Positions 7,420 to 41,499 of a stretch of DNA of 64,000 nt are shown piece after piece. The stretch covers positions 6,344,001 through 6,408,000 of the forward strand of contig NZ_CP019431.1 of the NCBI RefSeq assembly GCF_009866765.1, read 5' to 3'. Position 1 is the stretch's first letter. Each line of letters opens with the position of its first letter. The translations under genes were made by a program, and so were the position numbers. The DNA is from Pseudomonas sp. S35. GTDB taxonomy: Bacteria > Pseudomonadota > Gammaproteobacteria > Pseudomonadales > Pseudomonadaceae. The notes beneath the pieces were generated by a model. It did not search any database and was not told where the DNA came from. It was given only the letters and a program-made list of their open reading frames with translations.

Positions 7420-7557
7420 GGATCAATCCGTACTGAATAGATACGGCAGATAATAACAGCTCAGGCAAATACGCTTTGATTTGAATCAGCAAGTGCGGGG
7501 CCTCCCTGGCCACGTCGCACCGGGATAACAACTGCAGACCTCGCCACAGCCCTTGGG

Positions 7558-10203: not shown

Positions 10204-10207
10204 TCCC

Positions 10208-10301
10208 TGTGGCGAGGGAGCTTGCTCGCGCCGGGCTGCGTAGCAGCCCCAAAATCTTGGGAGCGCTTCGCACTCCAGCGCGAGCAAGCTCCCTCGCCAC
10301 A
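10208..10301. repeat. REP doublet (REPIN-like) after argH
   Basis: Two copies of a palindromic unit (TGTGGCGAGGGAGCTTGCTC and its complement) face each other across about 50 bp. This is the REP-pair arrangement common in fluorescens-group intergenic DNA. It lies between the convergent argH and GST genes and may also act as a terminator. Confidence 0.85.
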
Positions 10302-10311
10302 AAAGCGGTAC

Positions 10312-10971: not shown

Positions 10972-11096
10972 CGCAAAGCCTCCAGGCCGTGTGCGGGGTT
11001 GGCTGCAGGAGTTATAGATCCAGGGCGCCGCCCTGACCAGCAGCATCACCTGCCTGAATGGGGGTAGACTGGCGCCCTTTCCTTAAGGAGCCTGCC

Positions 11097-11381
11097 ATGA
11101 GCGAGCCGACCGATATCGACAACGACGAAGAAGAATTCACCGAAAACACGCTGATCGAAGCCATCGAAAACCAAATCGAAAGCGACAACCCACCCGCTGC
11201 CAAAGCCACGTTCAACAAACTGACGCTGGTGGGTTATGAACGTGAAGAGACCCTGAATCTGATGGCCCACGTGCTGGCATTCGAAATCGACGCCATGCTC
11301 GATGAGGACCGCGCATTCAATACCCAGTGGTACGAAGCCGCCCTACGAGCGCTGCCTGAGCTGCCGCCTGAAAAGGAATAA
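11097..11381 (+). CDS. Conserved small acidic protein of unknown function
   Basis: The product is 94 residues, strongly acidic at the N-terminus (DIDNDEEEF) and mainly helical. The ATG at 11097 follows AAGGAG at a good distance. I do not recognise a family with a known function. It is read with the TIGR02647-type gene and cyaA, but gaps of about 95 and 170 bp separate the three. Confidence 0.7.
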   Translation: MSEPTDIDNDEEEFTENTLIEAIENQIESDNPPAAKATFNKLTLVGYEREETLNLMAHVLAFEIDAMLDEDRAFNTQWYEAALRALPELPPEKE

Positions 11382-11476
11382 CCCCGGCACGCTGCAACAC
11401 GCTGGACAGTTCGGCAAAGTGCGTTCACCTTATGGCCTGCTAGCCTCTAATAAATTTTAGAAAGTCTGGAGTCCTT

Positions 11477-11731
11477 ATGTCGTATACCCCTGAGTTGGTT
11501 GCCGAACTGGAAATCCTTGTACTCTTCCCCTTGGACAGCACCAAGGAAGGCCTGAAAGTCCATAACACCGCCGCCCCTGCTGCAATCGCTGCTGCCAAGC
11601 GCCTCCATGCCAAAGGCCTTATTGACCAGCCGGACGGGGGCTACCTGACCAGCCTTGGCCGGGACGCTGCCGAGCAGGCCCAAACCCTGCTGACCATCTT
11701 GACTACAGCCAGCACCAAAGAAGCCGCCTGA
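11477..11731 (+). CDS. TIGR02647-family small protein, probable DNA-binding
   Basis: The 84-residue protein begins MSYTPELVAELEILVLFPLD and has a winged-helix-like pattern (AAIAAAKRLHAKGLIDQPDGGYLTSLG split over two helices and a wing). This matches the TIGR02647 family found in gammaproteobacteria, annotated as possibly DNA-binding but not characterised. An AGTCTGGAG ribosome site is present. Confidence 0.7.
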   Translation: MSYTPELVAELEILVLFPLDSTKEGLKVHNTAAPAAIAAAKRLHAKGLIDQPDGGYLTSLGRDAAEQAQTLLTILTTASTKEAA

Positions 11732-11899
11732 TACCTGATACCGCCCATGGAGTCCGCCTGCTGCGGATTCCGAGGGCGTTGCCGTGGAACGCGCGAAATT
11801 CTGGCGTCAAAAATCATTTCCCTCTAAACCTCCTACGCTACTGGCTGTAAACTCCTACACGGCCGCCCACGTCGGGCCCTGCGAGCCACCGAGTTCGAC

Positions 11900-14740
11900 A
11901 TGACCCGCACCCATGAAATCCGCCCCGACCTGGACGAAGGCATCGACCGCAAGGTGCTGGCCCAATTGCGTGCGCGCTTCATGGCACTCAATGAAGGCCG
12001 CATGGCCCGCGCCGTTGAGGGGCTGACGCCGCGCCAGCAGAGCGTGCTGACGCTGCTGCCGCTGTTTTTCCACGTCAATCATCCGCTGTTGCCAGGCTAT
12101 GTATCGGGCAGCACCCCAGCCGGGCTGTCAAACTTCGAACCCGACGCCCAGGCCCTGACCGAAGCCCAGCGCCTGACCCGCTCGTTCTCTTACAAACCGC
12201 GCCCGGTCAATCAGCCCAAGCCGATCCATGGCCTGTTCCTGATGGGCAGCCTCGGTACGCTGGCCCAGGCGGACCAGAGTGATATGGATGTGTGGGTGTG
12301 CCACGCAGCGGATCTGGGTGACAACGAGCTGGCCGAACTGCGCAAGAAATGCCAACTGCTGGAGGCCTGGGCGATGACCATGGGCGCCGAGGCGCACTTC
12401 TTTCTGATCGAGCCAACACGCTTCGTGCTTGGCGAACGCGATACCCAGTTGAGCTCCGACGACTGCGGTACCACCCAGCATTACCTGCTGCTGGATGAGT
12501 TCTACCGCACCGCCATCTGGCTGGCCGGGCGCACGCCGATCTGGTGGCTGGTGCCCGTGTATGAAGAAACCCGTTACGCCGAATTCACCCACACGCTGCT
12601 CTCCAAGCGGTTTATCCGTGCCGATGAAACCCTCGACCTCGGCCACCTGGCACGCATCCCACCCGGCGAATTCATTGGCGCCGGGCTGTGGCAGCTGTTC
12701 AAGGGCATTGAATCGCCCTACAAGTCGGTGCTCAAACTGCTGCTGACCGAGGTCTACGCCAGCGAACACCCGAACGTGCATTGCCTGAGCCTGCGCTTCA
12801 AGCGCGCGGTGTTCGCCAACCAGATGGACCTGGACGAGCTGGACCCGTACATCGTGGTGTACCGTCGCATCGAGGAATACCTCAAAGCGCGCAACGAGCC
12901 AGAACGCCTGGAACTGGTACGCCGCGCCCTGTACCTGAAGGTCAATCGCAAACTCACCGCCGGCCAACGCAGCACCAGTTGGCAGCGGCTGTTGCTGGAG
13001 CGCCTGGCCCACGAATGGGGCTGGGACCCGCGCCAATTGGCCCTGCTGGACAGCCGTAGCCAATGGAAAGTACGCCAGGTGGCCGCCGAGCGCCGCGCGT
13101 TGGTCAGCGAGCTGAATTACAGCTACCGGTTCCTGACCCAGTTCGCCCGCACCGAACAGACCGTCAGCCTGATCAACAAGCGTGACCTCAACGTGCTGGG
13201 CCGACGCCTGTACGCCGCATTCGAACGCAAGGCGGGCAAGGTTGAGTTCATCAACCCTGGCATCGCCCCGGACCTGGCCGAAGACACCCTGACCCTGGTG
13301 CAGTCGCCCAACCGCAAGGAGCCGGGCCAGCATCATTGGGGCCTGTACAACGGCAACCTCACGGCCTTGGAATGGGAGCACTTCGCGCCGATCAAGCGCA
13401 GCCGCGACCTGCTGGAGATGCTCACCTGGTGCCACCGCAACGGCGTGATCGACAGCAGCACCCGCCTGGCGCTGCACCCCGGCACCAGCGACATGACCGA
13501 ATTCGAGCTGTTCAACCTGCTGGGCAGCCTGCAACAGACCGTCGCCCTGCCGCTGGCCAGCGTCGACGAAGTCAACCTGTTGCGCTCGGCGGTGCCCGAA
13601 GAGGTGTTGCTGCTGATCAACGTCGGCGTCGACCCGCTCAAGCATCACCGCGAACTGAACATCCTGATGACCACCGAGCGCACCGACTCGCTGAGTTACG
13701 CCGGAGTGCGCGACAACCTGGTGCTGACCCTGGACCAGGTCACGCTCAACAGTTGGAACGAGGTGATGGTCAGTCGTTACGACGGCCCGCACGCCTTGCT
13801 CGACTGCCTGCGCGACTACCTCAACCAACTGCCGCCGGATCATCTGCCGCGCCTACGGGTGCGTTGTTTTTGTCACAACCGCGCGCAGTTCATTGCCCAG
13901 CGCGTGGAAGAAATCTTCGACACCGCGCAGAACCTGTTGCTGGGTCAGTCCAACCACCGCTATTTGCTGCAGGTCCAGCAGCACTACCACGTGATGGAGT
14001 TGATGCCAGGCCAGGCCACCCATGTGTCACTGGCAACCCAGGATGCACTGATCGCCTACCTCAGCGAGGAGTTGGCGAGCTACAGCCCATTGCACCTGGA
14101 CGCCAGGGCCCTGGAAGACCACGACCTGGCGCTGCTGTTGCCCATGGGCATGGCCGATTGTGTGCAGGTGTTCTACCGGGTCAACGAGGGTTTTGCCGAA
14201 CTGTATGTGCTGGACGAGTTCAACGCGCTCTGGCAACAACGCCTGCCGTTTCATGATGAGCAAAGCCTGTTGGCACCGTTGCAGCGCTTCCTGCAGTCGA
14301 TCATCTATCGACGGGACGCGTTGTCGCCGCTGGACACGCAACAACCGCTGGGTGCGGTGCAGACCTTGTATTACCAGCTATTGCCGTCAGGCAGTGGGCG
14401 CGCGCGCGGCGTTGAACCTCGCCCAGCGCCGCACAACCCAACGAACAAACCGTTTTACGACGTGCAGGCGATTATCGGCAAGGCCGCACCGGGCCAGGTG
14501 GGCATTACCCTGTACTGCAATCAGCGGGAGTTTTGCGAGTTGGAGTTCGGCGACCAGCTGTTTGCCGTGGTCGCCCAGGAAATCGTCGGGCAGCGCCGTG
14601 AGACTGAACGCTACCGCTGCTACATCACCGACCTCGACCTGTCAGGCCTGCTCGGTGATGTGCAAAGCCCGAGCAACCTGTACCTGCGCTACAAAGCCGA
14701 GCTGGAACTGTCACTCAATGAGGCGCTGAGCCAGATTTAG
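11900..14740 (+). CDS. cyaA: Class I adenylate cyclase
   Basis: The 946-residue protein has the N-terminal catalytic domain of enterobacterial-type cyclases (about 1-530; GSLGTLAQADQSDMDVWVCH holds the nucleotidyltransferase-like Gly-Ser and Asp pair) and the long C-terminal regulatory region. It makes cAMP for Vfr/Crp signalling. The stop overlaps the convergent rnk stop by four bases. Long minus-strand frames inside it are shadows. Confidence 0.96.
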   Translation: MTRTHEIRPDLDEGIDRKVLAQLRARFMALNEGRMARAVEGLTPRQQSVLTLLPLFFHVNHPLLPGYVSGSTPAGLSNFEPDAQALTEAQRLTRSFSYKPRPVNQPKPIHGLFLMGSLGTLAQADQSDMDVWVCHAADLGDNELAELRKKCQLLEAWAMTMGAEAHFFLIEPTRFVLGERDTQLSSDDCGTTQHYLLLDEFYRTAIWLAGRTPIWWLVPVYEETRYAEFTHTLLSKRFIRADETLDLGHLARIPPGEFIGAGLWQLFKGIESPYKSVLKLLLTEVYASEHPNVHCLSLRFKRAVFANQMDLDELDPYIVVYRRIEEYLKARNEPERLELVRRALYLKVNRKLTAGQRSTSWQRLLLERLAHEWGWDPRQLALLDSRSQWKVRQVAAERRALVSELNYSYRFLTQFARTEQTVSLINKRDLNVLGRRLYAAFERKAGKVEFINPGIAPDLAEDTLTLVQSPNRKEPGQHHWGLYNGNLTALEWEHFAPIKRSRDLLEMLTWCHRNGVIDSSTRLALHPGTSDMTEFELFNLLGSLQQTVALPLASVDEVNLLRSAVPEEVLLLINVGVDPLKHHRELNILMTTERTDSLSYAGVRDNLVLTLDQVTLNSWNEVMVSRYDGPHALLDCLRDYLNQLPPDHLPRLRVRCFCHNRAQFIAQRVEEIFDTAQNLLLGQSNHRYLLQVQQHYHVMELMPGQATHVSLATQDALIAYLSEELASYSPLHLDARALEDHDLALLLPMGMADCVQVFYRVNEGFAELYVLDEFNALWQQRLPFHDEQSLLAPLQRFLQSIIYRRDALSPLDTQQPLGAVQTLYYQLLPSGSGRARGVEPRPAPHNPTNKPFYDVQAIIGKAAPGQVGITLYCNQREFCELEFGDQLFAVVAQEIVGQRRETERYRCYITDLDLSGLLGDVQSPSNLYLRYKAELELSLNEALSQI

Positions 14741-24433: not shown

Positions 24434-25084
24434 ATGTCCCTCGCCATCGTCCACAGCCGCGCCCAGATCGGCGTCGAAGCCCCTGCCGTCACCGTCGAAG
24501 TGCATATGGCCAATGGCTTGCCGTCCCTCACACTGGTGGGTTTGCCCGAAACCGCCGTCAAGGAAAGCAAAGACCGCGTGCGCAGCGCCATCCTCAACTC
24601 GGCCCTGCAATACCCCGCGCGCCGCATCACCCTCAACCTCGCGCCCGCCGACCTGCCCAAGGACGGCGGGCGTTTTGATCTGGCGATTGCCCTGGGGATC
24701 CTCGCCGCCAGCGTGCAGGTGCCAGCGTTGATGCTCGATGACATTGAATGCCTGGGTGAGTTGGCGTTGTCCGGTGAAGTGCGTGCGGTGAAAGGCGTGC
24801 TACCGGCGGCTTTGGCGGCGCGCAAGGCCGGGCGCACCGTGATAGTGCCTCGGGCGAATGCCGAGGAGGCGTGCCTGGCGTCGGGGTTGAAGGTGATTGC
24901 GGTAGACCACTTGTTGCAAGTGGTGGCGCACCTCAATGGGCACGTGCCGATTGAGCCCTACAAGTCCGATGGTTTGCTGTACCTGAACAAACCCTACCCA
25001 GACTTGAGCGAAGTGCAGGGCCAACTGTCGGCAAAGCGCGCCCTGCTGATCGCCGCAGCGGGTGCGCATAACCTGTTCTTTTAA
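24434..25084 (+). pseudogene. comM: ComM (YifB), N-terminal part, cut by insertion
   Basis: Residues 1-214 match the N-terminal half of ComM: a LonB/ChlI-like fold (MSLAIVHSRAQIGVEAPAV, then GLPETAVKESKDRVR). The frame breaks after GAHNL, where the intact family continues into the Walker A segment; a TAA from the inserted element ends it. Joining 24434-25077 to 30930-31782 restores a 498-codon frame, the usual family length. ComM is a hexameric branch-migration helicase that helps natural transformation. Confidence 0.93.
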
Positions 25085-29098: not shown

Positions 29099-30862
29099 TT
29101 ATAACCCTACTTTAAGCGGAACAATAGCAAATCCTGCGTCGCTGTGTTTCTGTTTTTTTTGCTCGTCTGTCAGATTGAACCACTCGGCTATTTCTGCAAG
29201 GTCTTTCTCTCGTTCCTCGCCTTCGGCTTTTGGTGGAATATTTCCATACATACCGCCTTCATGAAGAAAACGGCGAACCCCACTTTTAAAGTTTATTTCA
29301 ACTGTTCTATCTATAAAATCAATTTTAATATCTTGGATAATTAACCGCAAACGCTCATTGATTTTTGACCTAACTTCAAAAACTGTTTGTTCATCTTCGG
29401 TACAGCTTAGATGCCGTAAGCTTTCGATATCCTTATCTATATCGGTTTTTTGCTGCTCTAATGCTTGATAAATTTTCGACTCAATGTCTTTCCTTTGAGT
29501 GGTCAACTCCTCTAGTCGCTGTTCACTCTCGATAGTCATCGACCTTTCCAAGTCGCTGACTTTGCCACGCAATCGCTTAAAGTCTGCCCTAAAATTAGCG
29601 AGCATCTCTTGCGTCTCACTGGCTTCCGATTCAATCTCATACTTTTTATTAACCAGCTCATCAACCTTATTATCTTCACTCAAAATACTCTTAATATCAG
29701 CCTCAGCCAAAAAAGTTAAGAGCTTTGTTTCGACTGCCTCATAAGGCCATGCCCTGTAACCACAGCCGCCATGTTTGGCACGATAGCATACTAAATATTT
29801 ACCCCCCTTACTCTTGTTTGAACCTTTGTTAATATGGGTAGCAGTAGCCCCGCATATCGAGCAATGGGCCAACTTCGTGAAAAGATTGCTAAACTTCTTC
29901 CCTTTATTCCCCTGCCCCGCCTCCGCTCGTCCCTTCCTTTTTTCCTGAACACGCCGATAGAGTTCCGGGCTTATAATCTGAGGGAAATAGTTAGAAATTT
30001 CCGATCCATGATTTATCCGACGCCTCCGATTATCTTCCAGCTTCTCCCAAGTCATTGGCTGGTAGTAGCCCATCACCGCTCTGCTATCGAGAATTTTTTT
30101 GATATATGACGGCTGCCAAAAATCACCATAGTTCGGATTTTTTCTTGAGTTTTCTCGTGTAAATGTAGGAATTCCTCTTTCGGTTAACAGTCTCGCTGTA
30201 GCAATGGCCCCGACGTTATTATCCGAAAGTCGGTATATTTCCCTCACCACGTCAACCCGTTCAGATATTGCTTCGATGGATCTGATTGTAGAACCATGTT
30301 CAATGGTTTTAAGTGCACGGAGCCATAACGGAAGTCGTGATGTGGCTACTTCGCCGGTCTGTGAGGCTCTTAGCTTTTTACCGTTCCAAGCCTCTCGAAC
30401 TCGCCTGCCCTTTTCCTTACTCTCGATAAAACCCCGCTGAAGCTCACCAATGGCAATATATAACTGAGTGATGTCTTCGCCCTGCTTATAAATTTGACTG
30501 CTAGCAGTGATGGCAATTTTTATGCCCTTGTTCAACAGGTCAAGAATAATAGGGAGACTTTCCATTGGATCAAGCCGTGTAATGCGGTTAATTGCCTCCA
30601 CCGCGAGATAATCCCCTCTCTTGACTACTCCACTATCAACTGCGTCTAAAAACGTCTTAAATCTCCCTTTTAAGATGTTCTTGCCGGTATAACCGGATAC
30701 ACCGAGGTCGTTCAGGTCAAGACTTGTATCAATCACCGCTCCTTCAGCGATGATTTCAGGGCGTGCTGCAAAGCTATCGATCAAATCTTGCTGCCGCCGC
30801 AGGCTATCGCCCTTGCGTTGCTCTTCGCTACTGAATCGTATGTAAGGCCATATCTTAGGCAT
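29099..30862 (-). CDS. Large serine recombinase (integrase)
   Basis: The 587-residue protein has a resolvase catalytic domain (about 1-150) with nucleophile S11 in YIRFSSEEQ, then a recombinase domain (about 170-290), a zinc ribbon (CSICGATATHIN, then CYRAKHGGCGYRAW), and a long coiled coil to about 480. It most likely integrates and excises the element at the TT core in comM. It is read toward the mob genes and begins about 65 bp from the right junction, beside its attachment site. Confidence 0.92.
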   Translation of the reverse strand: MPKIWPYIRFSSEEQRKGDSLRRQQDLIDSFAARPEIIAEGAVIDTSLDLNDLGVSGYTGKNILKGRFKTFLDAVDSGVVKRGDYLAVEAINRITRLDPMESLPIILDLLNKGIKIAITASSQIYKQGEDITQLYIAIGELQRGFIESKEKGRRVREAWNGKKLRASQTGEVATSRLPLWLRALKTIEHGSTIRSIEAISERVDVVREIYRLSDNNVGAIATARLLTERGIPTFTRENSRKNPNYGDFWQPSYIKKILDSRAVMGYYQPMTWEKLEDNRRRRINHGSEISNYFPQIISPELYRRVQEKRKGRAEAGQGNKGKKFSNLFTKLAHCSICGATATHINKGSNKSKGGKYLVCYRAKHGGCGYRAWPYEAVETKLLTFLAEADIKSILSEDNKVDELVNKKYEIESEASETQEMLANFRADFKRLRGKVSDLERSMTIESEQRLEELTTQRKDIESKIYQALEQQKTDIDKDIESLRHLSCTEDEQTVFEVRSKINERLRLIIQDIKIDFIDRTVEINFKSGVRRFLHEGGMYGNIPPKAEGEEREKDLAEIAEWFNLTDEQKKQKHSDAGFAIVPLKVGL

Positions 30863-30904: not shown

Positions 30905-30929
30905 GGGTCTAATGGTGTATGAATTCCTT
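30905..30929. other. attR: right 12-bp inverted repeat plus TT core
   Basis: GGGTCTAATGGT (30905-30916) is the inverse of the left repeat; eleven bases then lead to the core TT at 30928-30929, where comM resumes. Confidence 0.7.
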
Positions 30930-31782
30930 GTTCAGCGGCCCACCGGGCACCGGCAAGACCTTGCTCGCCAGTCGCCTGCCCGGCCTGTTGCCCCCCTTGA
31001 GCGAACAGGAAGCTCTTGAGGTGGCGGCGATCCAGTCCGTCGTCAGCCTCGCGCCGCTGAGCCATTGGCCACACCGGCCGTTTCGCCAGCCACACCACTC
31101 TGCGTCAGGGCCGGCGCTGGTGGGCGGCGGCTCGAAACCACAGCCTGGGGAAATCACCCTGGCTCACCATGGCGTGCTGTTCCTCGATGAGCTGCCGGAG
31201 TTTGATCGCAAGGTGCTGGAGGTTTTGCGCGAACCGCTGGAGTCGGGGCATATCGTAATTTCCCGCGCCCGCGACCGCGTAAGTTTCCCGGCACGCTTTC
31301 AACTGGTGGCGGCGATGAATCCCTGCCCTTGCGGCTATATGGGTGAACCTAGCGGGCGCTGTCGCTGTACACCGGAGCAGATCCAACGCTATCGCAACAA
31401 ACTGTCCGGACCGTTGCTGGATCGGATTGATCTGCACCTGACCGTGGCGCGCGAGGCTACTGCGCTCAACCCCTCCCGACAGGCCAGTGACACTACCGCG
31501 CAAGCGTCCGCCCAAGTCGCACAAGCCCGTGAGCGTCAGCAACAGCGCCAAGGTTGTGCCAATGCGTTTCTCGATCTGCCGCGGCTGCGTGAACACTGCC
31601 AGTTGGCGAAAGCCGATGAAAGCTGGCTGGAGGACGCGTGTGAGCGGCTGACGCTATCCCTACGCGCAGCCCACCGGCTGCTCAAGGTCGCGCGTACTCT
31701 GGCAGACCTTGAGCATGTGGAAGGCATCGCTCGCCATCATTTGGCGGAGGCCCTGCAGTACCGACCAGCAACCTCCACCTGA
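30930..31782 (+). pseudogene. comM: ComM, C-terminal AAA+ part, separated by insertion
   Basis: This part holds the Walker A GPPGTGKTLLASRL, Walker B (VLFLDELPEF), the Mg-chelatase-type NPCPCGYMG cysteine motif and the C-terminal helical domain, all in frame. An ATG at 30919, supplied by the element end, is in frame (MNSLFSGPPG), so the AAA+ part alone could be made, though no good ribosome site precedes it. Its final residues (ATST) differ from those of the second comM 3' end at 39769-39890. Confidence 0.9.
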
Positions 31783-31900: not shown

Positions 31901-32812
31901 TCAGCGAACGATCCCATAAAAGTTCGCAATTAAATAATCAACCAAAACCTTCAACTTTTTCGAGCCATACTTATTAGGCTTATATAATAACCACGCCATA
32001 CCTTGAGAACTGCCGATATATCTCCAGTTTGGCAAAATAGCAATCAGCCGCCCCGCACTCAGATCTGACTCTGTAGCGGCACTAGGTAAGCATGCTATTC
32101 CCAAACCATTTAGCGTCGCCTTGAGGACCGCTTCAATATCATTCGAGCAATAGCGCCCGCTGATCATCACTTCAGATTTTTCGTGCTCATTAGCGAATTC
32201 CCACCGCTTGTCTCCTGAGCTGTCAGCAATTGCGATACAGCTATGCGTCGACAATTCAGAGGGGTGATTTGGAACTCCGTAAAAATTGATATACTCCGGC
32301 GTTGCACACACTATAAAATCTACATTGAAGAGTTTTCTAGCGACCAACCCCAAAGGTGGCGCATCAGTTATTCCTATACTTAAATCAATCCCATCAGAAA
32401 CCAAATCTTCTTCAACACCATCAAAAATAAACTGAACGTTTATTTTTGGAAACTTTCGCAAAAACTCTGGCATAAGCTGATTAAGAGTGTTGTTCATCAT
32501 TTTGGGGGCAGAGATCTTTATCAGACCCTGCGGCTGCCCAAGCTCTTCTTTCAGATCAAATACTCTCGACGAAAAATCAAGCAAATCCTTACAATGGTAA
32601 TAAACTTTCACACCATCAGAATTTACTTTTAGATGTCGTGTACTACGCTCAATTAAGCGCAGAGACAAAATCCCCTCCAACTTTGAAATTTGCCGACTAA
32701 CAGCAGAAGCAGATACCCCTAGCTTTTCCGATGCCTCAATAAAACTACCTGTTTCCACTACAACTGCGAATGCAGCCATGTAGGGGAGCATATCGACATA
32801 ATCCTTATGCAT
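31901..32812 (-). CDS. LysR-family regulator of the biosynthetic island
   Basis: The 303-residue protein has an N-terminal winged helix (FAVVVETGSFIEASEKLGVS, AVSRQISKLE) and a substrate-binding domain from about 95. It resembles the CrgA-type LysR group. It lies at the 3' end of the operon, 241 bp after the exporter gene, in the same direction and equally AT-rich; it probably controls the cluster. The effector is unknown. Confidence 0.85.
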   Translation of the reverse strand: MHKDYVDMLPYMAAFAVVVETGSFIEASEKLGVSASAVSRQISKLEGILSLRLIERSTRHLKVNSDGVKVYYHCKDLLDFSSRVFDLKEELGQPQGLIKISAPKMMNNTLNQLMPEFLRKFPKINVQFIFDGVEEDLVSDGIDLSIGITDAPPLGLVARKLFNVDFIVCATPEYINFYGVPNHPSELSTHSCIAIADSSGDKRWEFANEHEKSEVMISGRYCSNDIEAVLKATLNGLGIACLPSAATESDLSAGRLIAILPNWRYIGSSQGMAWLLYKPNKYGSKKLKVLVDYLIANFYGIVR

Positions 32813-33053: not shown

Positions 33054-33920
33054 TCAATTAAACATATGCAAAATTATGGCCCCCATCAACACAAGTACAA
33101 CACCGAGTACCTGCCACCCTCGCAGCAGTTCCTTGAGGAACAAACAACCTAATATTGCAGCTATTCCACCCGAAAGCGTGCTGATTACGGTAACAATAGA
33201 AACTGAACCATTAATAGCGCCCCAAGAAAAAGCGGAAAACCCACCTAAATTTAGCAAACTAGCTATGACTAACAAGCCTATATTTTTTCGGGGTGGCAAT
33301 TTGAGACCCGCACTCAATTTAATCACTATAAAAAACAGCGCGAATAGACCTACGGCATAACCCAGCCATAGCATTGTAACTGGACCTAATATAGGAAGCG
33401 CATATTTCCCTTGTATCCAAAAACTTGTACCGTACAGAATCGCTGCTACAAGACCAAAAAGAATCGACACTTTATTTCTGCGATTTGTCTTCACATCAAC
33501 ATCCACATGAATGCTTGTAAGCAGGACCCCGACGACACAGATTAGAATACCAACGAACTGACTAAGAACAATAACATCTCCACTAGCCCAAGCTAGCGCA
33601 GTGGTAAATACACCATAAGAGGTTATCAACGGTGCAACAACCGCGGTCTTCCCGACTGCAAACGCTTTAGAGAGTGCTAAAGCACCTGCTACGGTGCATA
33701 TCGCAGCAGCTAGCCCCGCGCCCCAAATTACCAAGGGCGCTGACAGCGACTTGATAAAATAGAGTGGGTAAAGCAACAATAGGATGCTCATCAACACAAA
33801 GCCTAATGCCTGACCAAAAAAAACAGCCCTTTTTACGCCAACAGCACGGGCATTTAACCCTACAAGGAAATCAGTCCCCCCCCAAAACAATGCAGCAACA
33901 AGCCCCATCATCACATCCAT
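33054..33920 (-). CDS. EamA/DMT-family transporter, probable exporter
   Basis: The 288-residue protein has ten predicted helices in two EamA repeats. DMT proteins often export amino acids or small metabolites. A good ribosome site (AGGAAGGGG) precedes the ATG. In this operon it most likely exports the product or gives self-protection. Confidence 0.85.
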   Translation of the reverse strand: MDVMMGLVAALFWGGTDFLVGLNARAVGVKRAVFFGQALGFVLMSILLLLYPLYFIKSLSAPLVIWGAGLAAAICTVAGALALSKAFAVGKTAVVAPLITSYGVFTTALAWASGDVIVLSQFVGILICVVGVLLTSIHVDVDVKTNRRNKVSILFGLVAAILYGTSFWIQGKYALPILGPVTMLWLGYAVGLFALFFIVIKLSAGLKLPPRKNIGLLVIASLLNLGGFSAFSWGAINGSVSIVTVISTLSGGIAAILGCLFLKELLRGWQVLGVVLVLMGAIILHMFN

Positions 33921-34004
33921 AACCGTAGTCCCCTTCCTACTTCTTTAAATTATTTTTATATAATTGGCAGAAAGTAGTCTAGGACCGATAAAAAAGTCAA
34001 CTTC

Positions 34005-35258
34005 TCACTTTATCCCTTTTATTTGTACATCAGCGCCCCCCCCGTATAACTTCGCAAAAAATTTCAGCAGCGGAGGAGTCATCACAATCGATAAAAGTGC
34101 GACAATTAGGAAAATTCCGTAGGCCTTTTCCGATAAAACCCCCAGCTGCAATCCGATACTCAAAATTACAAGTTCGACGAGTCCTTTCGTATTCATCAGT
34201 AAGCCGACCTCCATAGCTATAGTCGGGCTCAGCCCGCAGATTCGACCGCCTAAATAAGTACCCACCACTTTTCCGAAAAAACCACCGACCGCAAAAATAC
34301 TTAGCCATAACCAAGTATCAAATTGTGAAAAATAGTCAAAACTGACCCGAAGCCCAGAATAAGCAAAAAATAAAGGTATGAAAAACACATGCGCAAAACT
34401 CCCAACTGTTCGCCTCCAAGTATGCTCAAGCCCAGGAACCTTGCAAAATACATATGCCGCAATTACCACACCTATGGCTTGATGGAATCCTAATTTTGAG
34501 GTTACCTCAGCGCTCACCAAACAATAACAAATCGCAAAAACTAACTGCATGCTCTTATTTCTCTGAGCCGCTCGCTCACGATACAAAAGGGAGATTAGAG
34601 GACGAATCACGTAAAAGGAAAACCCACAAAACGCAATTAAACTCAATGTATTTATCAGCACCCCAACAATATTTGTTTTTTCAGCAGTATAAAAAGCAAC
34701 TAAAAAGGCTACTCCGACCCAAGCAAATACGTCCGTGTAGATTGCGCTAGATAACGCAATAGAAGCCGTCGACACAGATATATGTCTCAAGTGATTAATT
34801 ATTCTGATTAATACTGGCAACGCTGTAACTGATAACGCAAGACCACAGAAAAATACGTACGGCCAAAAAGCGATATCAGGCGCTACACTTTCCTTGGAGA
34901 TGGTTGCAATTAGACATCCAATCAGGAACGTTAATGAGACTCCGAATAGGGTGATGACAAAGGGTATCAATCTAGTATGACGTATTTTTTCAGCATGCAT
35001 AAACGGCGTATGCCATACTACCTCGAACATTAGGAGCACCAGTCCCAAGTCCGCAAGGACCTTTAAATCCTCCAAAGAGTCAGTGAAAAATACTACGGCG
35101 TGCCCCTGGGGCCAAAGGACACCAAATACTGACCCCCCCAATAACAAGCCAGCACTAATTTCTCCTATCATCCGGCTTTGTCCGACCTTCTCCGCTAATC
35201 GCCCTAACACAAGAGAAAAAATAAGGATTAGAGAGACTTGCACCATCCAACTAGCCAT
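34005..35258 (-). CDS. Cation/proton antiporter, CPA2-type
   Basis: The 417-residue protein has about twelve helices and the Na+/H+ exchanger pattern (RLAEKVGQSRMIGEISAGLL, then VLLMFEV, and a MNTKGLVELV motif near 362). No TrkA-N or other regulatory domain follows, unlike KefB. Its role in a biosynthetic operon is unclear; it could energise export or maintain ion balance. Confidence 0.82.
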   Translation of the reverse strand: MASWMVQVSLILIFSLVLGRLAEKVGQSRMIGEISAGLLLGGSVFGVLWPQGHAVVFFTDSLEDLKVLADLGLVLLMFEVVWHTPFMHAEKIRHTRLIPFVITLFGVSLTFLIGCLIATISKESVAPDIAFWPYVFFCGLALSVTALPVLIRIINHLRHISVSTASIALSSAIYTDVFAWVGVAFLVAFYTAEKTNIVGVLINTLSLIAFCGFSFYVIRPLISLLYRERAAQRNKSMQLVFAICYCLVSAEVTSKLGFHQAIGVVIAAYVFCKVPGLEHTWRRTVGSFAHVFFIPLFFAYSGLRVSFDYFSQFDTWLWLSIFAVGGFFGKVVGTYLGGRICGLSPTIAMEVGLLMNTKGLVELVILSIGLQLGVLSEKAYGIFLIVALLSIVMTPPLLKFFAKLYGGGADVQIKGIK

Positions 35259-35334
35259 TCTGTTGCCCTACATAAAGTCGCCGCGATGGAATATGGGCAT
35301 TACTATTCTGAGCGAATTGCCTCTAAACTGAATA

Positions 35335-36567
35335 CTAACGGCAATGCAGCCGCATAACGCCATGCACTAGTTTCGAGTGCTCTTCGAGAACATTTTGATT
35401 TTCATGCATTAAATACACAAATCCCCATGTGGATAAAAAATCTTGGGTATCCTGAACAAGATCTCCAGCCTTTACCAACACATCGATATTGACCAACGAG
35501 GAAAGCTCTTTGACTTCATCAATACCTGAAACTGAAATAACTTCTCCTACACTCACATTAACAAGACAACAAATACAAAAATGTTTTTTATAGTTAACAC
35601 CTTTGAAATCACCTATAAAGCGCCCTAGAAAAACATCAAGATTGAGGCTATACCAATTCAATCCAGTGCATTGCTCTGCAATAGCGGGCACATTAGCCCC
35701 AGGAAGCCGCCCGTTTTGTTCAATAATAACCCATCCATCTACGGAGTTTTTAAACTCGATGTCATTAATCCCATAGTCTACCTCTAAGGCCTCATTGATT
35801 TTTCTTATATATTTGAATGCATGCCTTGCCTGCGAACTCAAGGTTGATAGGGATCGAATATTTTTGTACACGCTGGGATTGTTACCAACTCGGATTTTTT
35901 CGTACTCCGCAAAACATAATATATTTTTCTTTTTATATTTTCCGAAATTCGCTGTAGCCATGAAATACTCAGGCCCTTCAATGAACGTTTCAATTAGAGC
36001 ACCTCTCTCCTCTTGTATATAACCCTCATGCGCCGATTCGATCGCCGCGACTGCCTTAAAGACATCAGCTCGACTATGACAAATTTTAACATTTTTGCTC
36101 CCCGTCCCCTGGCAAGGTTTCACTACGGCTGGGTACTTAAACTCAACAGAATCACACTTGAGTAGTTGATCCAGCGAAACTTCTGTAGAGATAGTTGCTG
36201 GAACGCTATTGGCATGCAGGCGATGCTTCATTGCGAGTTTGTTGGTCCTCGCTTGCCGCGTTGCGACCGGATTACCAATCAGACCGAAATATTGAGCCAG
36301 TTCATCACTCAACTTAAGAGCAGAGTCAGACCCTGGTAAAATGGCCTTAACATTAAGGTCCAAAAGCCTTTCGATTGCTTCAGAAAAATCGTAGGCCTTA
36401 ACAGTCATCTCGAACCCATCGCAACTGTGCAATCTGTCGAGCATCCCGGGGAATCGGTCTCTCGTAACAAGCGCCACCGAACGAAAACCTTTCTTTGTTA
36501 TCTCAGTTCCGTATCGCCTAGCGGAGCTGACAGGATCAATGACTACTATAGATTGGAGCGTCTTCAT
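35335..36567 (-). CDS. ATP-grasp ligase
   Basis: The 410-residue protein has a pre-ATP-grasp domain (1-110), the ATP-binding lysine K150 with the Gly-rich loop (YPAVVKPCQGTGSKN), LIETFIEGPE at 191-200 and the Mg-binding IIEQNGRLPGA at 281-291. Such enzymes join amino acids through acyl phosphates. BesA, the ATP-grasp enzyme of the beta-ethynylserine pathway, makes a glutamyl dipeptide; an equivalent role here is inferred from context. The ATG lies two bases after the HDO stop. Confidence 0.85.
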   Translation of the reverse strand: MKTLQSIVVIDPVSSARRYGTEITKKGFRSVALVTRDRFPGMLDRLHSCDGFEMTVKAYDFSEAIERLLDLNVKAILPGSDSALKLSDELAQYFGLIGNPVATRQARTNKLAMKHRLHANSVPATISTEVSLDQLLKCDSVEFKYPAVVKPCQGTGSKNVKICHSRADVFKAVAAIESAHEGYIQEERGALIETFIEGPEYFMATANFGKYKKKNILCFAEYEKIRVGNNPSVYKNIRSLSTLSSQARHAFKYIRKINEALEVDYGINDIEFKNSVDGWVIIEQNGRLPGANVPAIAEQCTGLNWYSLNLDVFLGRFIGDFKGVNYKKHFCICCLVNVSVGEVISVSGIDEVKELSSLVNIDVLVKAGDLVQDTQDFLSTWGFVYLMHENQNVLEEHSKLVHGVMRLHCR

Positions 36568-36569
36568 AC

Positions 36570-37442
36570 TCAGATACCCCGCATGGCTTCGTACATATAC
36601 TTATAATATTTAACCGCAACGTTGTAGCGAATCATAACTCCAATTGCCAACTCCTGGATTACCTCCGCGCCAGTTTGTGAATAGTGCTGCAACACTGTTT
36701 CAAACCAAGCTTCGCTATGACGAGTATCGATACCGATATGAGCCTTGTGATAAGCGATAACCTCGCGAGGTAAACTCAATCGCTCGAGTGCGTGTGTTGT
36801 AGCGCCAAATCGAGCTGGCGCCGATCCTTCGACCAATCCCATAGCTCCTATCAACCGAACGTTAAATTCTCGACGAACTGCCCACATTAGGAGTATATTC
36901 CCATTCATCAAACACTCTTTAGAAGCCACTCCTAAACTAACATCTGTCCGCGCTAAAACCTGACGCATATAAGCAGAAGATATTTTGAACATAGACGTAT
37001 GGACAAAATCGAAGTTTCCGTTCCCCATCTCATCCCAATAGTTCTCTCCTGCTACCATTTTACAATGCACTGGCATCCCTACCTGCACAATGGCCATCAG
37101 ATCATCAAAGGAGCCATCCACCATTTCCTCCATACAAATGTAAAATGCAACCTGCTCCAATGTCGCGCTATACTTTATATAATCAACAAAAAAGGCAATT
37201 TCTTCATTAATACCTTTTTCTCGATTCAAGTACCACTTTAAAAACCCCTCCTTTGTTTTGGGAAGACTTTGAATATCCAATCTATCTTCTTCTGCAGCAG
37301 TCCACTCACTTTCTATTCGCTCTATCACTCTCCGTAATGCATGCAAGTGTGGGCCCTGGCCTACCAAGTCCGCGGGATCACTCAAGAGCGCTCGATAATA
37401 ATCGGCTAAATATTGCTGGCCTTCTCGACTTTCACAGTTCAT
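36570..37442 (-). CDS. Heme-oxygenase-like diiron oxidase (BesC-like)
   Basis: The 290-residue all-helical protein has the HDO pattern: YWDEMGNGNFDFVHTSMF at 135-152 (E138, H148), GAMGLVEGSAPARF at 199-212 (E205) and YHKAHIGIDTRHSEAW at 231-246 (D239, H242), with E105/E106 upstream. These are likely iron ligands. Known members cleave or oxidise amino acids and fatty acids (BesC, UndA, SznF). BesC splits chlorinated lysine to a vinyl amino acid. Next to a BesD-like gene, a similar role is likely. Substrate is unknown. Confidence 0.78.
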   Translation of the reverse strand: MNCESREGQQYLADYYRALLSDPADLVGQGPHLHALRRVIERIESEWTAAEEDRLDIQSLPKTKEGFLKWYLNREKGINEEIAFFVDYIKYSATLEQVAFYICMEEMVDGSFDDLMAIVQVGMPVHCKMVAGENYWDEMGNGNFDFVHTSMFKISSAYMRQVLARTDVSLGVASKECLMNGNILLMWAVRREFNVRLIGAMGLVEGSAPARFGATTHALERLSLPREVIAYHKAHIGIDTRHSEAWFETVLQHYSQTGAEVIQELAIGVMIRYNVAVKYYKYMYEAMRGI

Positions 37443-37452
37443 ATATAGGCTC

Positions 37453-37896
37453 CTAATAGATTACGGCAGGGAGTGTGCTTGACTTAAGATCAAATGCTTG
37501 TAAGGAAGGGCCGATTTCGTAAAGTAGCGTCATTTTTTCATGTGCCTCTTCCAATGTTGGAAAATGGTTATTATCAACCCACCACAACACCACACGAGGC
37601 CCTCTTAAAGGCAAGAACCACTCTGGTCCTCGTCGACGAAACTCATCATGGGGCGTTCGATATAAAAAATCTTTTAAGGCCTCAGGATCTTTCCACAATG
37701 AAAGTGTATAGAGATAACCTTCACCCCATAGTTCATCCAGTCGCTTTTGATCTTCGTTACTCTCTCGCCATATAAAACCCGGATGACGCTCAGCTAGTCC
37801 GTTTACATACTGGGTCGACGAGTAAAACCCTTCCATACGCGGATCATCCTTTGAAAATCTAGGTTTAACTAAATCGAACTGTGCAAGAATAGCCAT
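37453..37896 (-). CDS. DUF3291 family protein (dimeric alpha-beta barrel)
   Basis: The 147-residue protein has the DUF3291 pattern (AERHPGFIWRESNED, LYTLSLWKDPEALKDFLYRT, and a Trp-rich strand PRVVLWWVDNNHFPTLEEA). The fold is that of antibiotic-biosynthesis monooxygenases, but catalytic residues are not defined. It lies seven bases after the VOC gene and about ten before the HDO gene. Confidence 0.75.
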   Translation of the reverse strand: MAILAQFDLVKPRFSKDDPRMEGFYSSTQYVNGLAERHPGFIWRESNEDQKRLDELWGEGYLYTLSLWKDPEALKDFLYRTPHDEFRRRGPEWFLPLRGPRVVLWWVDNNHFPTLEEAHEKMTLLYEIGPSLQAFDLKSSTLPAVIY

Positions 37897-37902
37897 TAAC
37901 GC

Positions 37903-38352
37903 TCACTCCCATACCTGTATTTCGATGATGTTTCTGTCTGGATCTCTCACATAGACAAAGGTACAAACGCCCACGCCCTCCACAACCTGACTTACCAACT
38001 TTCCGAGCATCCAACCGCCCTCGCGAATAACTTTTAAGCATACTTCATTCAAGTCCGACACCTCGAAAGCAATATGCGTTAACCCCTTAGAATTCGCGTA
38101 TGAGATCTCACGTTCTTTAATCTTGCGATACTGAAATATTTCCAACGTTGGACCTTCTGCACCACAACCTGGAAGCCTCAAATGCACGCCCTCAATTTGC
38201 GCACTCTCGACGTTGGTTCCTCCTGACAGACTTTTCCCTGACAGAAAACGCTGCGGCCCGACTTGCTCACATCCAAATACCTTCTTATAAAAATTTGCAA
38301 GTCGCCTCCAGTTGGGCGTGACCAAGTTGGTGTGACTGTATTTTATGCTCAT
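37903..38352 (-). CDS. VOC-family (glyoxalase/bleomycin-resistance fold) protein
   Basis: The 149-residue protein has two beta-alpha-beta-beta-beta modules, with candidate metal ligands H7 (SHTNLVTP), the His of GLTHIAFEV and the Glu of NIIEIQVWE. It could be an isomerase, dioxygenase or lyase, or a resistance protein. The gene starts 21 bases after the halogenase-like gene. Confidence 0.8.
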   Translation of the reverse strand: MSIKYSHTNLVTPNWRRLANFYKKVFGCEQVGPQRFLSGKSLSGGTNVESAQIEGVHLRLPGCGAEGPTLEIFQYRKIKEREISYANSKGLTHIAFEVSDLNEVCLKVIREGGWMLGKLVSQVVEGVGVCTFVYVRDPDRNIIEIQVWE

Positions 38353-38373
38353 CTTTTGATCCTGATACGAAGA

Positions 38374-39120
38374 TCAATCCCTGAAAACAAAAGTCTCATG
38401 TTCTACATGACGCTCTTTATCACGCGCACGTTCCCATGTAGTGTTTAAAATTATACGTACCACATCCTGAGTTAATGGCTTTACACGATGCAGCGTTGTA
38501 TCTGCCTTTAAAAGATATACGTCTCCCGTCACATGAAAGTATGAGTCGATAGTATTTTCTACCAACAGACGTTCTATTCTGGAATTCTTCTTATCCCAGT
38601 TCGTGTGCGGCACACACTCTAGCAATCCTCCAGATTCTATACTTGGGGCTTCTACGACCCAAATAATTGTGTACGGATAGTCTCCCCAGTGCCATCCATG
38701 TGTATCTCCCGCTTTATGTTGACTATTAATGATATAGTTATCCCATCTCCACGGTGTAGGGATGACCTCCTCCTTCACAATACTTCGAATCAAACTCAAC
38801 AAATATTTTGATTTATAGGCAGTCGGGATATATTTTCCAAACTTTTCAATATCATCGCGAGTGACATTACTCAGATAACGCGGCGTATTGCCAGTTGATT
38901 CGATCAGAAGATCACGCCGTTTTGAATGATTAGCCAATAAGCATTTCACGTCGGTGATGATTTCATCTCGTACCATCGGATCAATCAAATGATTAATCTT
39001 CAAATAACCATCCCGAGCAAATCGGTGCTGCTCCCAAAACATGTCGTGACCGGTATAGGGTTCACTATTAAGAATATCCATCTGCACTTGATTGATATCA
39101 AACGATCTAGATTCACTCAT
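38374..39120 (-). CDS. BesD-like Fe(II)/2-oxoglutarate amino-acid halogenase candidate
   Basis: The 248-residue protein has the cupin core of the PhyH-like dioxygenases. Residues 140-150 read THGWHWGDYPY: H144 is followed at +2 by G146 where hydroxylases have Asp or Glu, the HXG halogenase motif. The distal His is H211 (TTLHRVKPL). BesD residues as I recall them (R74, H134, H137, G139, D140, H204, N219, T221) all map at a constant offset of +7 (R81, H141, H144, G146, D147, H211, N226, T228). BesD E120 becomes D127, and its C-terminal Trp is not obvious. It should chlorinate a free amino acid; which one is open. First gene of the operon; GGAG lies eleven bases before the ATG. Confidence 0.8.
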   Translation of the reverse strand: MSESRSFDINQVQMDILNSEPYTGHDMFWEQHRFARDGYLKINHLIDPMVRDEIITDVKCLLANHSKRRDLLIESTGNTPRYLSNVTRDDIEKFGKYIPTAYKSKYLLSLIRSIVKEEVIPTPWRWDNYIINSQHKAGDTHGWHWGDYPYTIIWVVEAPSIESGGLLECVPHTNWDKKNSRIERLLVENTIDSYFHVTGDVYLLKADTTLHRVKPLTQDVVRIILNTTWERARDKERHVEHETFVFRD

Positions 39121-39544
39121 CAGATTTATATCTCCGGGTAAGACATCAGTACAACCGTATTAAGCTCAAATGGATCCTATCCAATTTCAACTACCGGATA
39201 AATGACAGCCGAGCATTTCAGTCATGCTCGAAACGAGGGAATTAGAAACACTTCTGAAAAATCGCACCCGCACAATCATTACGCATGGTTGAACGTCACG
39301 GTAAGAGCGGCTTGGCCCTCTGTTACGTCAAAGCACAGTTATGTATCGCGGACACTTTTCCCGACAAGAAAGTTTGCGTACAAAGGCAAAACCATACCCG
39401 TATGGTTGGTTTGGTTGGCTGAGAATAATAGATATGCGGCCCCTAATAACCTCATCCGGTGTCGCTTCTGCCCAATATTCGACCAAGAATCTGAGCAATA
39501 GGACAAACGTATGATGAGTCTCGAACACCCACACACTCACATAT
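39121..39544. other. Upstream region of the biosynthetic operon
   Basis: This stretch of about 420 bp has no supported gene; 99- and 117-codon frames here carry no family signature. The minus-strand operon promoter should be here, but I see no strong -35/-10 pair. A palindrome at 39210-39230 may be an operator. Confidence 0.45.
39210..39230. promoter_or_regulatory. Palindrome upstream of the halogenase operon
   Basis: CGAGCAT-TTCAGTC-ATGCTCG is a perfect seven-base dyad about 90 bp before the halogenase start. It may bind the LysR protein or act as a hairpin; neither is proven. Confidence 0.4.
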
Positions 39545-39760
39545 ACCTTCACTGATTTATTGGTCCGAGTAATCCTCAGCCTGCATGGGCTAAAACACAG
39601 AACATCGGGAGTTGCCGCTAGCATGGTGTTGGCGCGACACCTTGTCGATGTCTTCGAAAGACATGTGCCGATCATCGCCACAGCGATAGTTTCAGTAGTC
39701 GGAGTGGCGGTGTTCTTTTTATCGAACCGTGGATTGGCCCAACGCGCCTACTACAAGGGT
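39545..39760 (+). pseudogene. Decayed fragment of an ABC-transporter TM-like gene
   Basis: The fragment's translation (VLARHLVDVFERHVPIIATA, then IVSVVGVAVF) aligns with residues of the intact gene at about 40900-41080 (VLAREFVDFFEKHVPIIATA). It has no start or stop of its own and joins directly to a comM fragment. Confidence 0.8.
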
Positions 39761-39768
39761 GCTGTGCG

Positions 39769-39890
39769 CTACGCTCGGCCCATCGACTGCTCAAAGTCGC
39801 GCGTACCCCAGCGGACCTTGAGCAAGTAGAATGTATCGCTCGCCATATTTGGCGAAGGCACTACAGTACCAACCGGCAGCAGTTGGCTAA
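39769..39890 (+). pseudogene. comM: Second, decayed 3' end of comM
   Basis: About 120 bp match comM 31660-31773 at roughly 80 percent, with one base deleted (CATATTT against CATCATTT), ending in-frame style at ALQYQPAAVG-TAA. It overlaps the tetR 3' end. It is probably a relic of the comM end that originally faced tetR. Confidence 0.85.
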
Positions 39891-40515: not shown

Positions 40516-40553
40516 TTGAGCGATCGCTCAAAGATACTTGAGCAGTCGCTCAA
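40516..40553. promoter_or_regulatory. Twin 16-bp palindromic operators for TetR
   Basis: TTGAGCGATCGCTCAA (40516-40531) and TTGAGCAGTCGCTCAA (40538-40553) lie 22 bases apart, about two helix turns, in the divergent promoter region. This is the usual layout of TetR operators. Confidence 0.8.
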
Positions 40554-40584
40554 GGATAGCGTCTATCAACCCCTTGGTGCACCC

Positions 40585-41499
40585 ATGACATCCCTCACCC
40601 CTCAGGTTCTGATCGAAGAAAGCAAGAGAATCGGCCAACAGTCCGCCAGCCAGACGCTCAAGTCCATTGCCAAAGCCTATCCCGCAAAACTGTTCTGCAC
40701 CTTGTCACCGGTGGCACTTGAGAACGCGTTGTTGCTGGCCTATCCGCTGTTAGCCGGGTTTGCGGTGGACTCGATTATCCGTGGATACGCCAGTAGCGCG
40801 CAGTTCTACGCCCTCGTCGTCATGGCGTTATGGGTGGTCGGGGCCGCGCGGCGTGCACTGGATGCCAGCACCTTCACACAGATCTACGCCGACCTTGCAG
40901 TACCGGTGATCCTCAATCAGCGCCAGCAGAACCACAGCACATCGAAATCCGCTGCACGGGTGGTGCTCGCGCGGGAGTTCGTCGACTTTTTTGAAAAGCA
41001 CGTGCCGATTATCGCCACGGCACTGGTGTCGATAGTCGGTGCTGCGGTGATGCTGATCGTGATCGAGCCCTGGGTCGGCCTGGCGTGCCTGGCCGCACTG
41101 CTGCTGTGCATCACGCTGCTGCCACGCGTTGCCCAACGCAACCAGGAGCTGCATGAGCGCCTGAATGATCGCCTGGAGAAAGAAATCGGCCTGGTGGAAA
41201 AGGTTGGCGCCCCCACCGTGCGACGCCACTACCACGTGCTGTCACGCCTGCGCATCTGGCTGTCAGACCGTGAGGCTGCAGCGTATCTGTTCCTCGGTAC
41301 GCTGGCGGCATTGTTGTTTGTGGTTGCAATCTGTCAGTTGGCGTTGTCGCCGGCGGTCAAGGCCGGCCACATCTACGCGGTCATGACCTACCTGTGGACC
41401 TTCGTCACCAGCATGGATGAAGCGCCAGGGATGGTCGATCAACTGGCGCGACTCAAAGATATTGGCAAGCGCGTGGACCACAGGCTCGGAGACCACTGA
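40585..41499 (+). CDS. ABC-transporter six-TM domain protein without ATPase domain
   Basis: The 304-residue protein matches an exporter-type ABC transmembrane domain (ENALLLAYPLLAGFAVDSII, HVPIIATALVSIVGAAVMLI) but ends before any nucleotide-binding domain, and no ATPase gene is adjacent. The start at 40585 lies after the operators. It is probably controlled by the divergent TetR. Function is unknown. Confidence 0.8.
   Translation: MTSLTPQVLIEESKRIGQQSASQTLKSIAKAYPAKLFCTLSPVALENALLLAYPLLAGFAVDSIIRGYASSAQFYALVVMALWVVGAARRALDASTFTQIYADLAVPVILNQRQQNHSTSKSAARVVLAREFVDFFEKHVPIIATALVSIVGAAVMLIVIEPWVGLACLAALLLCITLLPRVAQRNQELHERLNDRLEKEIGLVEKVGAPTVRRHYHVLSRLRIWLSDREAAAYLFLGTLAALLFVVAICQLALSPAVKAGHIYAVMTYLWTFVTSMDEAPGMVDQLARLKDIGKRVDHRLGDH

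Follow-up and report, generated by a model that had tools for sequence, protein, structure and literature searches.

A conserved Pseudomonas operon that pairs a BesD-family halogenase with an HrmI-related diiron enzyme: a candidate route to an unusual amino acid

Introduction

What is made by an operon in which a radical halogenase, a haem-oxygenase-like diiron enzyme (HDO) and an ATP-grasp ligase are encoded side by side? The question is raised by positions 33054..39120 of the window, the 64,000-nucleotide stretch of the Pseudomonas sp. S35 genome (a single contig of 6.6 Mb, NZ_CP019431.1) that was analysed here. The first-pass annotation had read the locus as a relative of the bes pathway (BesA-E), in which a BesC-like enzyme would cleave a chlorinated amino acid to a chloro-vinyl amino acid. 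We found that the halogenase is of the BesD family as proposed and that the diiron enzyme resembles HrmI. The gene set apparently combines the chlorination and the N-oxygenation of one amino acid in a conserved, apparently undescribed pathway, whose product is likely a small amino acid or dipeptide of unusual structure, such as nitrocyclopropylalanine.

Results

The operon consists of seven open reading frames (ORFs), which are all open, lie on the minus strand and are tightly packed as first described. From 39120 down to 33054 the gaps between them measure 21, 6, 10, 2, 76 and 84 bases, and the first five genes, from the halogenase through the ATP-grasp gene, are nearly contiguous.

The first gene (38374..39120, minus strand) encodes a protein of 248 aa that was assigned to the HalD/BesD family of iron(II)/2-oxoglutarate (Fe/2OG) radical halogenases by its domain, solved relatives and motif. 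It scored 278.5 bits with PF23169 (HalD in Pfam), for which the cut-off is 26, and its best solved relatives were HalB (7u6i, 1.4e-68), HalD (7u6h, 2.1e-60) and BesD (6nie, 6.4e-55), together with three lysine-halogenase sequences. The iron motif is H144-W145-G146; H144, G146, H211 and R81 align with H137, G139, H204 and R74 of BesD. Hydroxylases carry H-x-D at this position. The glycine was present in 41 of 43 close proteins, fragments included, the other two having a glutamate and a gap. Hydroxylation instead of halogenation was rejected as the function, glycine standing at this position in all nine rows of the window clade described below. The protein scored 226.9 bits against NCBIfam NF042920 (L-lysine 4-chlorinase BesD), under the curated cut-off of 450.

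A tree was built from 84 sequences: the window halogenase, three solved enzymes and the halogenases of 80 loci, the best 80 of 132 relatives found in genome contigs. Nine rows including the window form a clade on one side of a branch with support 100/99, and this clade groups with HalD 7u6h and two Marinobacter proteins (99/90). The window halogenase shares with HalD 7u6h the residues DYPYT after the HxG motif, falls outside the supported group of BesD and lacks W238/W239 of BesD. At the position of BesD E120 it carries D127. Aspartate occupies this position in 9/9 rows of the window clade and glutamate in 75/75 other rows of the tree alignment; in a second set of 121 proteins, aspartate was found in 43/43 (the window and 42 close relatives) and glutamate in 78/78 others. 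BesD E120 presumably contacts the substrate amine. If so, the window clade would have a substrate with a different amine end. This private change suggests that the halogenase may see a modified amine, for example an N-hydroxylated one, so that the HDO may act first.

C4 of lysine is not the only target in this family: HalB chlorinates C5 of lysine, and HalD acts on ornithine to give 4-chloro-ornithine. We take HalD 7u6h to be PkHalD. Lysine and ornithine are reported as the substrates of SwHalB and PkHalD, respectively (PMC8407142), and BesD is reported to chlorinate lysine at C4 (PMC10187165). The window enzyme is a predicted chlorinator of a free amino acid, with D127 as a warning that its substrate may have changed.

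The fourth gene (36570..37442, minus strand) encodes an HrmI-type HDO of 290 aa with a PF14518 (haem-oxygenase-like) match at 2.2e-25. The first-pass annotation had called it BesC-like. Its best match among PDB sequences was HrmI (9n1a, 8.3e-33), and BesC (7TWA) was not listed at E<=1. The search was controlled with HDOs of two other loci: the one beside a BesD-type halogenase in L057 matched 7TWA at 4.7e-134 in the same library, and that of L039 matched HrmI at 9.8e-89 and 7TWA at 0.021. In the alignment, the ligand spacing is E-x9-H in the window HDO and HrmI and E-x6-H in BesC, and the segments D-x3-FDD and NYWDEMGNG are common to the window HDO and HrmI. The predicted metal ligands, assigned by eye in the register of HrmI (3H/3C set), are E138, H148, E205, H235, D239 and H242; each of the six is present in 68 or more of the 70 rows, with gaps in the others.

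A 36-row HDO tree gave three groups: BesC and its kin (98/100), from which the window HDO is excluded; HrmI with the HDOs of the Pseudomonas loci L101 and L102 and the actinomycete loci L035 and L039 (98/93); and the window HDO with HDOs linked to a PF10014 enzyme (100/98). The deep forks between groups are without support and some branches are very long; the long-branch rows (four paralogs of the window genome and L103) were given no weight. The tree sets the window HDO apart from both BesC and HrmI without saying which is nearer. Since these forks lack resolution, its nearness to HrmI rests on scores and alignment. The HDO fell into an unrelated clade, an outcome that the first-pass annotation had itself named as speaking against its reading. 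The BesC identity was rejected on the missing 7TWA match, the ligand spacing and the position outside the BesC clade. Judged by sequence, the HDO is related to HrmI and is not a strict HrmI ortholog. The active sites of HrmI and BesC are described as markedly different; in HrmI the terminal nitrogen of lysine sits on iron and N6-hydroxylysine is an intermediate, and the substrate of BesC is 4-Cl-lysine (PMC13108848). The window HDO is probably an N-oxygenase and not a C-C lyase. Without a BesC-type enzyme, there is no support left for an oxidative cleavage that would give a chloro-vinyl amino acid. Some other product that differs from that of the bes pathway still looks likely.

To which partners are halogenases of this family joined? 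Among the 80 loci, tblastn searches at 1e-5 matched a BesC-type HDO at 21 loci, a PazB-like pyridoxal phosphate (PLP) enzyme at 12 and an HrmI-type HDO at 10. The other 37 showed no such partner, and contig ends cut some of these short. The ten HrmI-type pairings comprise the eight window-clade loci (L006-L013) and two actinomycete loci, L035 and L039, whose halogenases sit elsewhere in the 84-sequence tree. The pairing of halogenase and HrmI-type HDO thus apparently arose twice independently, in Pseudomonas and in actinomycetes, which argues for useful chemistry and not for a chance neighbour. The two actinomycete clusters belong to Actinoplanes aureus and Streptomyces iranensis, and the halogenase gene is directly followed by that of the HrmI-type HDO. 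A conserved cluster (L035 10007-18363, L039 9791-18384) continues with an FAD/NAD(P)-binding protein, an FMN dehydrogenase and a pyridoxamine-oxidase-like protein; flavin monooxygenase-like and kinase-like proteins were also recognised, both by eye.

The protein that we take for PazB, of the SHMT family, was matched at none of the window-clade loci, and its 12 loci gave no HDO match. Five of the halogenase loci are from Legionella species (L059, L063, L071, L076, L078), each with a BesD-family halogenase beside a PazB-like SHMT-family enzyme (~40% identity) and with a divergent LysR gene. Two Marinobacter species (L015, L016) combine a HalD-clade halogenase with a BesC-type HDO that is 44% identical to 7TWA.

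HDO homologs (E<=0.001) were found in 13/398 Pseudomonas genomes, and nine of them, the window's own included, are of the window type (38-100% identity). In seven of these nine, the halogenase, a VOC protein and a DUF3291 protein adjoin the HDO. In the other two (genomes G036 and G003; loci L099 and L100), a PF10014 Fe/2OG enzyme adjoins the HDO in place of the halogenase and VOC protein, and a DUF3291 gene follows a few genes on (71% and 64% identical to the window's). PF10014 had no match in the window's genome; in seven other halogenase genomes examined it was absent from five and lay far from the operon or on another contig in two. We take PF10014 to be the family of isoleucine dioxygenase (IDO), BelL and HrmJ. 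The solved nitrocyclopropane synthase ScBelL is reported to resemble IDO (PMC10764440). Since the PF10014 enzyme replaces the halogenase and VOC protein beside the HDO while DUF3291 is kept, it looks as if, within the window clade, DUF3291 goes with the HDO and the two enzyme sets are alternatives.

A DUF3291 protein at >=48% identity was present in 10/396 Pseudomonas genomes, a sample drawn separately from the 398 above, and nine of the ten are the same nine that carry a window-type HDO; in the remaining one (G231, locus L121), the 14 kb examined held no HDO match near the DUF3291 gene. As a marker of the HDO only, DUF3291 fails narrowly, some DUF3291 match occurring in 45/396 genomes.

L099 (cluster span 6677-12464) further holds genes for a fatty-acid-desaturase-like (GntB-like) hydroxylase, GNAT, ThiF and ArgC, and L100 (6025-11742) resembles it in gene content by eye. 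They represent an uncharacterised Pseudomonas cluster, in which the ArgC gene hints that the product could be an antimetabolite directed at arginine synthesis. The HDOs of L101 (8129-9052) and L102 (8342-9250) are HrmI orthologs (51-53% identity) with neither a PF10014 enzyme nor a halogenase as neighbour.

The remaining genes, all on the minus strand, were assigned as follows. The VOC-superfamily protein (37903..38352, 149 aa; PF00903) has a complete glyoxalase-type metal site, H7, E71, H93 and E144, which is invariant in 37 aligned rows. Its AlphaFold2 model (pLDDT 95.4) matched 1ss4 best in Foldseek and then Ni glyoxalase I (1f9z), with FosX also among the fold matches. It is proposed as a nitronate-binding, ring-closing enzyme. 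A link to CmaC is conceivable. The DUF3291 protein (37453..37896, 147 aa), assigned by its family match, has a predicted dimeric alpha/beta-barrel fold like that of antibiotic-biosynthesis monooxygenases; no DUF3291 literature that also mentions 'biosynthetic gene cluster' was found.

The ATP-grasp protein (35335..36567, 410 aa) resembles L-amino-acid ligases. It matched PF13535 (ATP-grasp_4; 1.1e-10, 41.8 bits against a cut-off of 27), its best solved relative is an L-amino acid ligase (30vh, 5.8e-20), and LAL_C2 stayed under its cut-off (25.6 against 29.4). The amino-acid ligase expected in the operon is thereby confirmed as a family call, and a dipeptide ligase is proposed. The next two genes encode a CPA2-type Na+/H+ antiporter family membrane protein (34005..35258, 417 aa; PF00999, Na_H_Exchanger, 3.1e-44; TIGR00932 below cut-off) and an EamA-family transporter (33054..33920, 288 aa; PF00892, 2.3e-20), the latter a proposed exporter. 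Ligase, EamA protein and antiporter would fit dipeptide formation followed by export. An eighth co-directional gene, 241 bases past the EamA gene, encodes a LysR-family regulator (31901..32812, 303 aa; PF03466 and PF00126), which is kept in 8/8 close loci. Pfam matches bore out the original family calls for the Fe/2OG, VOC, DUF3291, ATP-grasp, antiporter and EamA proteins. The absence of a PLP enzyme was likewise upheld: no PLP family occurs among the eight genes and no PazB-like match in L006-L013, BesB not having been used as a query.

All eight proteins were recovered by tblastn in 8/8 close Pseudomonas loci (L006-L013, GTDB genomes), and the gene order is identical in seven; in L013 the EamA and LysR genes have changed places and the antiporter is matched weakly (23% identity). 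Of 298 genomes drawn from the whole family, 20 had a PF23169 match, and five of the 20 had the run halogenase-VOC-DUF3291-HDO. The GC content of the seven operon genes is 43.3%, as against 60.8% in window positions 1-24000 and 61.8% in 41001-64000, and the operon was therefore likely acquired horizontally. A promoter and terminator scan was uninformative, sites being fewer than in shuffles (8 vs 16.4; 3 vs 7.3).

A comM/YifB-type Mg-chelatase gene is seemingly split into a 5' part (24434-25084, by eye) and a 3' part (30919-31782, Pfam), the latter 118 bases from the end of the LysR gene. Between the parts lies an element of 41-48% GC with a large serine recombinase (29099-30862). On the upstream side of the operon (39328-39830), short degenerate ORFs look by eye like pieces of the ABC_membrane_3 protein that is encoded at 40516-41499. 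They may be the scar left by an old insertion; a search for DNA repeats of >=20 bases detected none.

Discussion

How might these enzymes work together? HrmI and BelK are reported to convert lysine to 6-nitronorleucine; the Fe/2OG enzymes BelL and HrmJ then abstract the C4-H and form a bond from C4 to C6, the carbon that bears the nitro group, and belactosin is joined by ATP-grasp ligases (PMC10764440). In the scheme that we propose, the halogenase would chlorinate the lysine side chain at C4 and the HDO would oxidise the terminal amine to the nitro level. The nitronate carbon would then expel chloride and close a nitrocyclopropane, the metal VOC protein holding the nitronate and driving the displacement. 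With a chloride on C4 and a nitronate at C6, displacement would give the same ring as BelL/HrmJ, which would explain why no PF10014 enzyme is needed. DUF3291 would assist the HDO step or act on the product, the ligase would make a dipeptide, the EamA protein and antiporter would export it, and LysR would regulate the operon. The HDO possibly acts first; the halogenase may then follow the oxygenase at the same C4-H that BelL/HrmJ attack. We infer the substrate (lysine, with ornithine also possible), the chlorinated carbon, the nitro level, the order of oxidations and the ring closure.

Of the ways to employ the genes found, chloride displacement would be the most economical. The chance that chloride is a leaving group here is slightly below even. 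The scheme as a whole, with C4 chlorination, N-oxygenation and closure to a nitrocyclopropane, is possible, the best of the readings compared, and put forward tentatively. That a radical halogenase replaced an Fe/2OG cyclopropanase, through cryptic chlorination, an HrmI-type nitronate and closure by the metal VOC protein, is a somewhat doubtful step further.

Several observations weigh against the nitrocyclopropane scheme. The HDO shares only ~30% identity with HrmI and falls in another supported group (100/98), outside HrmI's clade, so that its substrate and reaction could differ. L035 and L039 have no VOC or DUF3291 match, and a ligase-like match was found only in L039, weak and ~7 kb away; the VOC, DUF3291 and ligase proteins are therefore not required by the enzyme pair. 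The VOC protein belongs to a broad family, with 350 relatives found at 1e-8, and may have been recruited for detoxification. The L099 and L100 clusters hold other genes and may act on another substrate. On the S. iranensis contig (L039), a partial PF10014 match lies ~17 kb away from the HDO gene, and true HrmI orthologs occur in two Pseudomonas genomes without an adjacent PF10014 enzyme (L101, L102); 'halogenase or PF10014' is thus no clean rule outside the window clade. HalB, the best single match of the halogenase, attacks C5. The solved halogenase in its supported clade is HalD, and for PkHalD the reported substrate is ornithine (PMC8407142), from which the nitrocyclopropane ring would not form.

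The chlorine may instead be kept, so that an N-oxygenated chloro-lysine or its dipeptide would serve as an antimetabolite, with VOC and DUF3291 proteins tailoring or detoxifying it. We consider this rather unlikely. The same enzyme calls fit it, VOC proteins include resistance enzymes (FosX being among the fold matches) and the actinomycete pairs lack a VOC match. Characterised pathways of the halogenase family, however, use chlorine as a leaving group, as pazamine formation does. Chlorine is likewise expelled at the BesB step (PMC10187165), and the exchange of halogenase and VOC protein for a PF10014 enzyme suggests a shared end step. Less likely again is a heterocycle, in which N6-hydroxylated 4-chloro-lysine would close via oxygen or nitrogen to an isoxazolidine, an isoxazoline N-oxide or an azetidine. 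Chemically, a chloride three atoms from the oxidised nitrogen could be displaced by oxygen, nitrogen or carbon, and HrmI is reported to pass through N6-hydroxylysine (PMC13108848), but no enzyme of the operon favours attack by oxygen or nitrogen over attack by carbon.

If the substrate were ornithine, 4-chloro-ornithine would be N5-oxygenated and would then lose HCl to give a reactive nitroalkene or retain its chlorine. The activity reported for PkHalD (PMC8407142), the clade shared with 7u6h (99/90) and the common DYPYT speak for this. HalD, however, keeps glutamate at the E120 position, which the window clade does not, and if the amine is held by E120, a substrate with a shorter side chain would be expected to require an acidic residue that reaches further, not less far. 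The two Marinobacter loci nearest HalD carry a BesC-type HDO, and BesC is reported to act on 4-Cl-lysine (PMC13108848); ornithine as the substrate appears about as improbable as the heterocycle. That the operon joins a BesD-family halogenase to both an HDO and an ATP-grasp ligase would also be accounted for by cleavage of 4-chloro-lysine to chloro-allylglycine, followed by ligation to a dipeptide and export. This is very unlikely, as the HDO has no detectable likeness to BesC and BesC-type partners were easily found in 21/80 halogenase loci.

If the nitrocyclopropane scheme is true, the operon would have arrived by convergence at a second route to nitrocyclopropyl amino acids. To our knowledge, it would then also be the first pathway to join halogenation and amine N-oxygenation for ring closure. 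With chloride as the leaving group of a nitronate, it would be a second natural way to strained nitro amino acids from lysine, by small soluble enzymes without a carrier protein, which are attractive for biocatalysis. A search of mainly open-access literature found no paper on a Pseudomonas halogenase-HrmI cluster, a weak negative given that coverage. A survey of gene clusters that encode both an HDO and an ATP-grasp ligase reports at least 25 kinds, and the operon may be among them (PMC13185094). The locus also provides a function-linked context for DUF3291 and, in D127, a residue testable by one mutant. The BesC annotation, plausible but mistaken, is one that automatic readers could make again, and the analysis of the locus corrects it.

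The bes pathway shares with the window operon a BesD-family halogenase, an enzyme of the HDO fold and an ATP-grasp ligase. It differs in that the window HDO is not BesC-like, the eight genes include no PLP family and the halogenase lies outside BesD's supported group without W238/W239. In the pazamine system of Pseudomonas, a BesD-family halogenase (PazA) and a PLP enzyme (PazB) reportedly form a cyclopropane by chloride displacement. The genus, the halogenase family and the mode of closure are those proposed for the window operon, whereas there a PLP enzyme adjoins the halogenase. Coronamic acid is formed by CmaB and CmaC through cryptic chlorination and carbanion displacement to a cyclopropane. 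The proposed cryptic chlorination is alike, whereas CmaB and CmaC use a carrier-protein-bound substrate. The actinomycete clusters L035 and L039 resemble the window operon in that the gene of an HrmI-type HDO comes directly after that of a BesD-family halogenase. Unlike in the window, their HDOs group with HrmI, FAD/NAD(P) and FMN enzymes lie downstream and the halogenases keep E120. Finally, the hormaomycin (HrmI-HrmJ) and belactosin (BelK-BelL) pathways have an HrmI-type diiron enzyme in common with the window, and belactosin is reported to share the ATP-grasp ligation as well (PMC10764440). The window HDO belongs to a group separate from HrmI, and where those pathways use a PF10014 enzyme, which operon and genome lack, the window has a halogenase and a VOC protein instead.

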